Positions 45,162-46,988 of a stretch of DNA of 48,693 nucleotides are shown in pieces. The stretch is from an uncultured Prochlorococcus sp. (GTDB taxonomy: Bacteria; Cyanobacteriota; Cyanobacteriia; PCC-6307; Cyanobiaceae): NCBI GenBank assembly GCA_902534675.1, contig CACAQQ010000004.1, positions 1-48,693 on the forward strand, given 5' to 3'. Below the pieces are notes generated by a model that did not search any database, had not been told where the DNA came from, and was given only the letters and a program-made list of their open reading frames with translations. Position numbers and translations under genes: made by a program. Every line of letters starts with the position of its first letter. The stretch's first letter is position 1.

Positions 45162-45407
45162 ATGAGTACTGAAACACTCTCTCTGACAAACGAAAATGTA
45201 GAAAAAGTCCTTGACGAGCTAAGACCTTTTTTAATTTCTGATGGAGGTAATGTTGAGATTGCAGAAATAGATGGTCCAATTGTCAAAGTCAGACTTCAAG
45301 GAGCATGTGGTAGTTGCCCAAGTAGCACTATGACTCTCAAAATGGGTATTGAAAGAAAGTTAAAAGAAATGATTCCTGAAATAAGCGAAGTTGTCCAGGT
45401 TTTATAA
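45162..45407 (+). CDS. NifU-like (Nfu) iron-sulfur scaffold protein
   Basis: An 81-aa protein consisting only of the NifU C-terminal domain: [20 protein letters not shown], then the cluster-binding C-x2-C in [18 protein letters not shown]. It assembles and hands on a cluster at a dimer interface; the cyanobacterial small NfuA type is thought to serve photosystem I. Monocistronic; 22 nt from the convergent small membrane gene. Confidence 0.94.
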
Positions 45408-45687: not shown

Positions 45688-45837
45688 AAATAAATAGTTA
45701 CATGAAGATTAAACCAAATATAAACATAAACCTTTTTAGAGACTATTCATAAAAAAATTTACCTAAGATAATAATTAAAAAAACATTAAATCTTCGTTTC
45801 TATTTGTAAAAGCTAGACATGCAGTCAAAAATACGCT

Positions 45838-45843
45838 TATAAT
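45838..45843 (+). promoter_or_regulatory. -10 box of the riboswitch/DUF4278 gene
   Basis: A perfect TATAAT, placing the transcript start near 45849-45851, immediately before the palindrome and the riboswitch. No obvious -35 hexamer. Confidence 0.6.
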
Positions 45844-45849
45844 AATTTG

Positions 45850-45863
45850 GTAGCAATCGCTAC
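45850..45863. promoter_or_regulatory. Candidate NtcA site (GTA-N8-TAC) at the transcript start
   Basis: The sequence gta gcaatcgc tac is a full match to the NtcA consensus, but it is also a perfect inverted repeat (gtagc/gctac, loop aatc) that would fold as a 5' RNA hairpin. Its place just downstream of the TATAAT box is that of a repressor site, not an activator site. Whether NtcA binds is inference. Confidence 0.5.
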
Positions 45864-45868
45864 TTTTT

Positions 45869-45914
45869 CGTTCACCCTCATTTGAGGGCGCAGTTCGAGT
45901 CATACCATGGAACG
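45869..45914 (+). promoter_or_regulatory. Glutamine-II (downstream-peptide) riboswitch
   Basis: The leader has the core of the downstream-peptide motif, a close relative of the glnA RNA: P1 formed by cgttc (45869-45873) and gaacg (45910-45914), P2 by ccctc and gaggg (45875-45888), and the conserved junction gcgcagttcgagtcatacc between them. These RNAs bind glutamine and precede short ORFs in marine cyanobacteria and phages, which is the setting here. Beyond it, gatg/catc with gtg/cac (45918-45937) can form a hairpin just before the start codon, a possible expression platform. Confidence 0.88.
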
Positions 45915-45942
45915 GGGGATGGCCGTGTTGTCACATCGAAAC

Positions 45943-46116
45943 ATGACTACTTTAACTTACAGAGGTAAAAACTACGTTCAAAACAAAGAGGCTGTTAAAA
46001 AGCAACTTGTTGAACTTACCTACAGAAGAAACGTATACACCAATAGAATGGATGACGCTTCTTCAAGTAATGAAAAAGCAGAATTAAATTACAGAGGTGT
46101 TAATTACACTAAATAA
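45943..46116 (+). CDS. DUF4278 small protein under riboswitch control
   Basis: A 57-aa protein (from ATG 45943) with three copies of an L-x-YR-x-x-x-Y motif: LTYRGKNY, LTYRRNVY and LNYRGVNY, the mark of DUF4278. The frame is open to an ATG at 45907, but that ATG lies against the 3' strand of riboswitch stem P1, so the extra 12 residues (MERGMAVLSHRN) are more likely the riboswitch read as protein. In Synechocystis, small proteins controlled by nitrogen status (GS inactivating factors, PirA) act on nitrogen enzymes; whether this peptide does so is unknown. A strong terminator follows directly, making a one-gene unit. Confidence 0.82.
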   Translation: MTTLTYRGKNYVQNKEAVKKQLVELTYRRNVYTNRMDDASSSNEKAELNYRGVNYTK

Positions 46117-46132
46117 TTTAATTAAACAAATT

Positions 46133-46161
46133 AAAAGCCCCTTTTCAGGGGCTTTTTTTTT
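46133..46161 (+). terminator. Rho-independent terminator
   Basis: A strong hairpin, aaaagcccc/ggggctttt with a ttttca loop, followed by a run of T. It closes the DUF4278 transcript and separates it from the methyltransferase gene. It is the clearest terminator in the window. Confidence 0.93.
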
Positions 46162-46193: not shown

Positions 46194-46988
46194 ATGTCTG
46201 AAAGTTGCTGTAATACAACCACATCTAATAAAGCATCTAATCAATTCGATCATAAAGATGCGATTCAAGAAAGATATGGTTCAGCCGCACTAGAAAAAGA
46301 AAGTTGTCTTTGTACACCAGTTGGGTTTAATCCCGTTTTACTTGAAGCAATTCCTCAAGAGGTTATAGAAAGAGACTATGGATGTGGGGATCCAACTAAA
46401 TATGTTCAAAAAAATGATATAGTCTTAGATCTTGGAAGTGGTAGCGGCAAAAATGCTTTTATTTGTGCCCAAATTGTTGGGAAAGAAGGGAAAGTTATTG
46501 GAGTTGATCAGAATCCTGATATGCTTTCTTTATCTAGATCAGCCTCTAAAGAAGTTACAAAAAATATAGGTTTCAACAATACAGAATTTCTTGAAGGTTC
46601 AATTGAAAAACTTGATAAATTAGATAAAGATTTAAGTCCATTAATCGCCGACAAATCAGTTGATATTATTTTAAGTAATTGCGTTTTAAACTTGGTAAGT
46701 CCAGAATCTAGAAATAACCTTCTAAGAAATATAAAAAGAGTTTTAAACGATAATGGAAGAATTGCAATTAGCGATATTGTCTCTAACAAAAAAGTTCCTT
46801 TAAGATTGCAAAATGATCATGATCTATGGACAGGATGTATTAGTGGAGCATGGTATGAACCAGACTTTATAAGTGACTTTAAAGAACTAGGATTTAAAAA
46901 TTTAGAATTTGCAGAAAGGAGTGCTGAACCTTGGAAAGTAATTGAGGATATAGAATTTAGAACAGTAACTTTAGTAGGCAATATTTAA
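46194..46988 (+). CDS. ArsM-like SAM-dependent methyltransferase
   Basis: A 264-aa class I methyltransferase with the pattern of arsenite methyltransferases: RDYGCGDPTKYVQKNDIVLD leading into motif I DLGSGSGKNAF, SNCVLNLV with a Cys, and LWTGCISGAWY with a second Cys, matching the ArsM NCVxNL and LWxxCxxGA cysteine positions; further cysteines occur at 5, 6, 38 and 40. It ends with FRTVTLVGN. Arsenic methylation is the best guess, given phosphate-poor oceans and arsenate entry, but no other ars gene is adjacent. Confidence 0.8.
   Translation: MSESCCNTTTSNKASNQFDHKDAIQERYGSAALEKESCLCTPVGFNPVLLEAIPQEVIERDYGCGDPTKYVQKNDIVLDLGSGSGKNAFICAQIVGKEGKVIGVDQNPDMLSLSRSASKEVTKNIGFNNTEFLEGSIEKLDKLDKDLSPLIADKSVDIILSNCVLNLVSPESRNNLLRNIKRVLNDNGRIAISDIVSNKKVPLRLQNDHDLWTGCISGAWYEPDFISDFKELGFKNLEFAERSAEPWKVIEDIEFRTVTLVGNI

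Follow-up and report, generated by a model that had tools for sequence, protein, structure and literature searches.

Layout of the cassette

The window, by which we mean the whole 48,693-base stretch of DNA that was analyzed, contains at 45814 to 46161 a compact plus-strand cassette made up of a promoter, a 14-mer palindrome, a riboswitch aptamer, a 57-amino-acid (57-aa) open reading frame (ORF), and a terminator (Table 1). An earlier note on this DNA, written from the letters alone, had placed a TATAAT box, a riboswitch, a short ORF, and a strong terminator here, and all four were recovered at those places by the promoter scan, Rfam, Pfam, and folding. A scan of one kilobase gave 6 promoter-like sites, of which this promoter ranked first; shuffled sequences averaged 4.5 sites of any quality. 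The terminator folded at -19.4 kcal/mol, a value that 0 of 200 shuffles equaled.

The cassette lies between a NifU-like ORF (45162 to 45407) and an ORF for an ArsM-kind methyltransferase (46194 to 46988). The nearest matches of the latter were arsenite methyltransferases, yet it scored under their curated cut-offs. Among the best 80 of 191 relatives, of which the nearest bearing a name were Prochlorococcus, a simple motif test found the NifU motif flanking the gene in all 79 loci with enough flank and the methyltransferase motif in all 77. The source assembly is 53% complete.

Table 1. Features of the cassette, with the basis for each assignment
Feature	Position	Strand	Basis or remark
Sigma-70-type promoter, TAGACA-N18-TATAAT	45814-45843	+	11 of 12 consensus positions; -10 box at 45838-45843
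Putative NtcA site, GTA-N8-TAC, GTAGCAATCGCTAC	45850-45863	+	Sequence; predicted +1 to +14; 5' RNA hairpin possible
Glutamine-II (type 2 glutamine, downstream-peptide) riboswitch aptamer	45866-45923	+	Rfam RF01704
Candidate expression-platform spacer	45924-45942	+	Fold and own-versus-swapped pairing test, weak
57-aa DUF4278 protein ORF	45943-46116	+	PF14105, start conservation, codon-position signal
Intrinsic terminator	46133-46161	+	10-bp stem at 46133-46156 plus T run

The riboswitch and its candidate switching helix

The covariance-model check that the earlier note had proposed for a downstream-peptide (glutamine-II) RNA gave a match to RF01704 of 67.5 bits (cut-off, 33; E = 2.8e-14) over the full model, positions 1 to 60, and this was the sole Rfam match at cut-off within the 48,693 bases. 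The aptamer lies in the 5' untranslated region of a short ORF, 19 bases ahead of its ATG. Both helices named in that note are present, CGTTC (45869 to 45873) with GAACG (45910 to 45914) and CCCTC (45875 to 45879) with GAGGG (45884 to 45888), but the first had been called P1 and is what we take, following the crystal-structure paper (PMC6698751), to be the pseudoknot helix in crystal-structure naming. Within the sampled wider family, strict filters gave a Glutamine-II match in 126 of 201 genomes and a DUF4278 match in 163 of 201.

Binding of L-glutamine and switching are reported for Glutamine-II relatives in the excerpts of PMC6316151 and PMC6698751, and by analogy the aptamer at 45866 to 45923 probably does both. 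The excerpted 2018 review further states that glutamine binding by a Prochlorococcus type 2 riboswitch activates expression (PMC6316151), which agrees with the earlier proposal that the peptide is made when glutamine is high. An alternative pairing has been suggested for Glutamine-II in the crystal-structure paper (excerpt of PMC6698751). Here, a candidate ligand-free pairing would join TCGAAAC (45936 to 45942) to the aptamer strand GTTCGA (45893 to 45898), and ATGACT (45943 to 45948) to the aptamer strand AGTCAT (45898 to 45903). The lowest-energy fold of the free RNA did pair the start codon with aptamer strands, but it was no better than the folds of shuffles (z = -0.70; 47 of 200 shuffles as good). 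When the start region of each locus was paired with its own or with a swapped aptamer, the mean energy was -6.48 versus -5.96 kcal/mol and 0 of 2,000 permutations were as good; among 126 distinct cases, however, own pairing was the stronger in only 76 (mean rank, 0.45), and the statistic ignores relatedness. A switching helix between the start region and the aptamer is therefore put forward as a weak candidate.

A small DUF4278 protein under selection

The ORF, which ends with a TAA at 46114 to 46116, encodes a protein that matched DUF4278 (PF14105) at 44.1 bits, above the gathering cut-off of 25.3, over profile positions 1 to 57 of 57. This upheld the earlier description of a DUF4278 peptide. 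The protein has three YRG-type repeats (LTYRGKNY, LTYRRNVY, and LNYRGVNY). We assembled 93 copies of the gene from the window, the best 80 of 191 relatives, and 12 near-complete genomes of the genus, and left out one copy for want of flank. Of the 92 remaining copies, 79 belong to the set of the best 80 of 191 relatives and are hence close ones. An identical amino acid sequence was encoded in 81 of the 92; three versions differ from it at a single residue, among them that of the window. The 41 distinct DNA versions all had an open frame, and the sites that varied in at least 2 versions fell at codon positions 1, 2, and 3 in 1, 1, and 12 cases. This third-position bias, together with the open frames, supports coding and points to selection on the protein.

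The 16 homologues found in other genera start at the same methionine (45943) and keep the three YRG-type repeats, with some substitutions. Two in-frame starts further upstream, inside the aptamer at 45907 and 45919 (69 and 65 aa), are common in close relatives, occurring in 76 and 77 of the best 80 of 191. They were rejected because the 16 homologues begin at the residue encoded at 45943 and because a 1-base deletion in one copy (L202) breaks those frames and spares the 57-aa frame. Structure predictions for the protein, alone and with 22 alignment rows, were poor (mean pLDDT, 64.7 and 64.6), and a search of solved structures by sequence gave one chance-level match (E = 0.95). Neither this search nor that of phage families indicated a partner protein; only phage families of unknown function were matched.

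The C-terminal domain of the IF7 type is characterized by three invariant arginines, and no such domain is present in the 57-aa protein. A profile of the domain, searched up to E <= 10, matched nothing in 13 genomes of the genus, one of which is the window's own, 53% complete. It matched in 4 of 4 control genomes (E of about 5e-17), which supplied rows of the profile and so show only that the search works. In genomes of other genera of the family, 4 of 6 gave five weak, chance-like matches (E = 0.055 to 0.38). Comparison of the DUF4278 and IF7 profiles gave no alignment (probability, 0.1), and the IF7 profile found nothing of note among solved structures (E = 0.58).

Sibling riboswitches in the genus

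The 12 near-complete genomes of the genus held 59 riboswitch matches at E <= 0.001, which with the second copy in the window's own genome made 60 loci. One sub-threshold match (24.9 bits), inside an unrelated frame, was set aside. According to the downstream ORF we distinguish five classes, the labels being those of this analysis: class A, 57-aa DUF4278 proteins (12 loci); class B, 33 aa (12 loci); class C, 30 or 33 aa (14 loci); class D, 53 to 56 aa (17 loci); and class E, 101 to 109 aa with a hydrophobic stretch (4 loci). Two class D proteins were compared to Pfam, and neither gave a match at cut-off or was a DUF4278 protein. The second riboswitch of the same genome (contig C1, 6686 to 6748, minus strand; 59 bits) has the same palindrome and is followed by a 30/33-aa peptide of class C, MYFNGKSF...LTYRGSSYLR. 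Near this second cassette, at 2435 to 2800 of L002, lies a 121-aa frame with approximately three near-identical 34-residue repeats. In five loci (L175, L176, L182, L201, and L446) the palindrome and a Glutamine-II aptamer precede a 100- to 110-aa protein with a hydrophobic stretch, and the one such protein that was tested showed a weak resemblance to CbtB (E = 0.018), far below cut-off.

A putative NtcA operator at the transcription start

The consensus binding site of NtcA is GTA-N8-TAC. The palindrome between the promoter and the aptamer, GTAGCAATCGCTAC, matches it exactly and lies over the predicted start site; an overlap with the promoter or the start site is characteristic of NtcA-repressed promoters. 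NtcA would be expected to bind here. The -10 box starts 12 bases before the G at 45850, matching the spacing in a consensus built from 87 related loci (TATAAT-N6-GTAGC), and since this gives a normal -10 spacing, the G of the NtcA consensus is taken to be +1. A start at this G agrees with the mapped start of the transcript Yfr6 (excerpt of PMC1242208) and with the remark that transcription starts approximately 20 nucleotides before the downstream-peptide motif (excerpt of PMC2864571). The motif is common by chance (6 in the window on both strands versus 4.56 expected), so a lone GTA-N8-TAC proves nothing and the case for an operator rests on its fixed place.

Within the genus, the operator occurred at this fixed place in 41 of the 42 siblings of classes A (12 of 12), B (12 of 12), C (13 of 14), and E (4 of 4), and in 0 of the 17 of class D. 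Its distance from operator start to the Rfam match was 16 bases in 34 siblings, 15 in 6, and 17 in 1. For other genera we examined 90 loci with top-ranking scores (30 listed and 60 picked). In this sample, which is skewed to high scores, 89 loci are of other genera and one (L021) is of the same genus and also among the 60 siblings; the operator was at the start site in 87 of the 90. To offset this score bias, 13 complete genomes from other genera were searched for every match, giving 54 above the cut-off. In the 53 that were scored, the operator was near the start in 38, further upstream in 5, and absent in 10. Among 35 lower-scoring loci, one of them below the cut-off, the corresponding numbers were 21, 5, and 9.

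In this genus the class D loci (L178, L185, L190, and 14 more) are without a start-site operator; in many of them a -10-like box directly adjoins the aptamer and is preceded by a near-palindrome resembling AGTAAAAATTACT. Five class D-like loci of other genera (L458, L459, L460, L462, and L464) have the NtcA consensus ahead of the -10-like box, at a distance of approximately 34 bases from the aptamer. A terminator scan listed the palindrome as a terminator, with a T run behind it in class A. We rejected this assignment, as classes B, C, and E are mostly A-rich after the palindrome.

Phage versions of the sensor and peptide

A DNA pattern search of viral contigs found at least 120 contigs, with 126 pattern matches among those listed, and these totals are lower bounds. 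Fifty-four of the at least 120 contigs (16, 20, and 18) were submitted to Rfam, the last 38 having been chosen for their resemblance to type 2, and a type 2 aptamer was confirmed in all 38 chosen contigs and in 3 of the first 16. We used 40 type 2 phage loci, leaving out one with both types; 2 were near a contig end and 38 were scorable. None of the 38 had the operator at the start site, and GTA-N8-TAC was present elsewhere within 60 bases in 3 of them. Among the listed pattern matches, which are of mixed type, the operator was found in 1 of the 123 scorable out of 126.

A YRG peptide follows 37 of the 38 scorable phage type 2 riboswitches, and the sole exception (L312) seems to have a GTG start. 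The peptides measured 13 to 40 aa when counted from the longest ATG frame and 13 to 39 aa from the shortest, and even with the longest frame 25 of the 37 had no more than 22 aa. In L272, L300, L336, L343, and others, the riboswitch is often followed by a peptide of approximately 17 to 21 aa, for example MTVTYVYRGIAYTKIVK. The phage families matched were phrog_545 and phrog_5049, both of unknown function. When a set of proteins from viral contigs was compared with the host classes, class D had a common N-terminal piece with it (probability, 94.7%) and class A a common C-terminal YRG piece (93.2%); one row of the set, L359, may be a host sequence. An annotated phage collection searched with the 57-aa protein and with this aptamer gave no match, and a search of viral contigs with the profile of the family alignment gave 4 stretches, none of which was confirmed.

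The aptamer looked doubled in 28 of the 126 listed phage pattern matches, as against none in either the set of 60 or the set of 90 host loci. Doubled aptamers preceded YRG peptides in L263, L270, L274, L311, and other viral contigs. That these were tandem type 2 riboswitches was rejected after the Rfam check: of 16 phage loci, 7 were type 1 (RF01739), 3 were type 2 (one was both), and 7 were neither, and the 11 doubled aptamers among these 16 comprised 6 of type 1, one of them matching type 2 as well, and 5 that were neither at cut-off. The type 1 (glnA) RNA is known to occur in tandem (excerpt of PMC2864571). Because the doubled pattern matches included type 1, the comparison of operators between host and phage was limited to the confirmed type 2 loci. 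As to the nature of the contigs, six were inspected more closely: a protein of L263 was a single-strand DNA binding protein and one of L300 a major head protein by comparison with PHROGs, and L274 reads like a contig with PsbA- and PsbD-like photosystem proteins. Viral contigs also carried the RNAs manA and PhotoRC-II (L276, 1640 to 1839; L274, 1021 to 1116).

Relation to known systems

The kind of cassette is already known, and the fixed operator found across the family refines it; in a search of the open-licence literature, a weak negative, neither this operator nor the contrast between host and phage was found in print. The following comparisons draw on excerpts of the papers cited. Weinberg et al. 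(2010) described the downstream-peptide motif ahead of ORFs of 17 to 100 aa (PMC2864571). In MED4, PMM1846 is a DUF4278 gene with a type 2 riboswitch and an NtcA motif in its promoter, and the 2018 review suggested that it encodes a glutamine synthetase inhibitor (PMC6316151). It shares with our gene the genus, a 7-kDa DUF4278 protein, a glutamine riboswitch in the 5' untranslated region, and the NtcA consensus in the promoter region, and from this description and the size it is the probable MED4 counterpart. The earlier note had considered the target undescribed; in the literature consulted no target is proven, but the proposal for PMM1846 precedes it. That note thus stands in part, having missed the NtcA consensus at 45850 to 45863, the prior literature on such cassettes, and the paralogues.

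Yfr6 of MED4 and SS120 is likewise a short transcript with a G start behind a TATA element, a short ORF, and a drop on nitrogen depletion (PMC1242208 and PMC2518516). Its start was mapped at the G, with a 33-aa frame at nucleotide 97 (Axmann et al., 2005; PMC1242208); by our own count the class B ATG is at nucleotide 98 from the operator G. By its 33-aa product Yfr6 would correspond to class B, whereas the gene studied here is of class A. Expression of Yfr6 was lower on nitrogen depletion, and its signal was also called inconstant (PMC1242208).

Other systems are more distant. The gifB product of Synechocystis, IF17, also has the DUF4278 domain, an activating glutamine riboswitch, and NtcA repression (PMC6316151), but its C-terminal domain of the IF7 type, by which glutamine synthetase is inhibited, has no counterpart in the 57-aa protein, and its riboswitch is type 1 rather than type 2. 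The Glutamine-II aptamer of the crystal structure belongs to the same Rfam family as the aptamer at 45866 to 45923, and the wild-type RNA printed with that structure (PMC6698751) is identical to the class D aptamers of L178 and L218, which are upstream of 56-aa proteins of another kind. PirA of Synechocystis, compared by description only, is a small protein produced in nitrogen excess whose promoter has NtcA sites compatible with repression, but the excerpted report gives it as absent from marine picocyanobacteria (PMC8092223). This weakens an analogy to PirA as grounds for the earlier note's suggestion that the peptide may act on arginine synthesis.

A two-signal model and its alternatives

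We propose, at a probability of roughly 70%, that the locus encodes a small protein whose production is gated by two successive nitrogen signals. The gate logic itself, in which NtcA would block transcription under nitrogen stress and glutamine would turn on translation, we consider highly probable. From the position of the operator, NtcA would sit on GTAGCAATCGCTAC over the start site and block transcription when nitrogen is low and 2-oxoglutarate high; with ample nitrogen it would leave, allowing an mRNA of approximately 310 nucleotides to be made from the promoter to the terminator. High glutamine would then stabilize the Glutamine-II pseudoknot, free the start region from its alternative pairing, and turn on translation, a logic that according to the review has been shown for a Prochlorococcus relative (excerpt of PMC6316151). 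The DUF4278 protein would build up in plentiful nitrogen and might restrain nitrogen assimilation via a partner protein, for which glutamine synthetase or the PII/NtcA/PipX circuit are candidates. That the protein acts directly on nitrogen assimilation has, in our estimate, slightly under an even chance.

The YRG peptides might instead act on a target unrelated to nitrogen assimilation, such as the translation apparatus or another general partner, with glutamine serving only to signal that growth is good. In phages this sensor occurs with very short YRG peptides, and a brake on nitrogen supply is an unlikely benefit for a phage, both of which speak for such a target, but the searches made indicate no partner. 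We regard this as somewhat unlikely.

It is less probable, and overall unlikely, that the 57-aa protein is a glutamine synthetase inactivating factor like IF17 or IF7, binding the enzyme and switching it off in nitrogen excess. This is what the review proposed for PMM1846, and the DUF4278 domain covers the N-terminal part of IF17, with the same riboswitch logic, an NtcA motif, and an arginine-rich composition (excerpt of PMC6316151); by eye, cyanobacterial IF17-like proteins have the same three-repeat domain. Inhibition of the IF7 type, however, is weakened by the failure of the IF7 profile to match in the 13 genomes of the genus or to align with DUF4278. The N-terminus of IF17 is dispensable for inhibition, and earlier work had excluded control by inactivating factors in this clade, both according to the same excerpted review (PMC6316151).

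A third alternative keeps glutamine as the sole control and takes the palindrome at 45850 to 45863 to be a 5' RNA hairpin, a stability element or riboswitch part, rather than an operator. GTAGC and GCTAC do pair perfectly in the fold, a T run follows the palindrome in the window and in other class A copies, and both arms change together to GTATC/GATAC in L399, to GTAAC/GTTAC in L411, and, with loss of the NtcA consensus, to GCAGC/GCTGC in L422. Such dyad changes are, however, also expected for the DNA site of a dimer. Both GTA and TAC are exact in 87 of 90 loci, and 12 of these 87 have C-A at the inner pair 5/10; exact ends with a mismatched inner pair fit a DNA site better than a stem. The consensus is upstream of the -10-like box (boxes assigned by eye) in 5 of the 35 lower-scoring loci and so cannot be part of the RNA there. 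The 38 confirmed phage aptamers are without the palindrome in this place, which suggests that the riboswitch does not require it. We judge the hairpin reading improbable. Finally, a dual-function RNA or toxin-antitoxin element in place of a metabolic regulator, as Steglich et al. (2008) suggested for Yfr6 and Yfr14 in MED4 (excerpt of PMC2518516), Yfr6 being a probable class B relative, is very improbable, as the codon-position bias shows selection on the protein and the glutamine aptamer accounts for the structured leader.

Returning to the two-signal reading, we offer as a tentative extension that the operator at +1 and the aptamer form a portable two-signal module ahead of an entire family of YRG mini-proteins in marine picocyanobacteria, and that the phage versions, which have the sensor and peptide without the operator, may escape NtcA and act on the same host target. 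If so, the module would be a coincidence gate responding to low 2-oxoglutarate together with high glutamine, and the phage version, down to approximately 17 residues, would act with the YRG hairpin itself as the effector. The 57-aa gene is a direct candidate: its protein is near-invariant in close relatives, and its expression would be switched by glutamine and, as the sequence suggests, by NtcA. Setting host beside phage reduces a domain of unknown function to a short, testable motif, and a common binding partner of host and phage YRG peptides would probably be the target.
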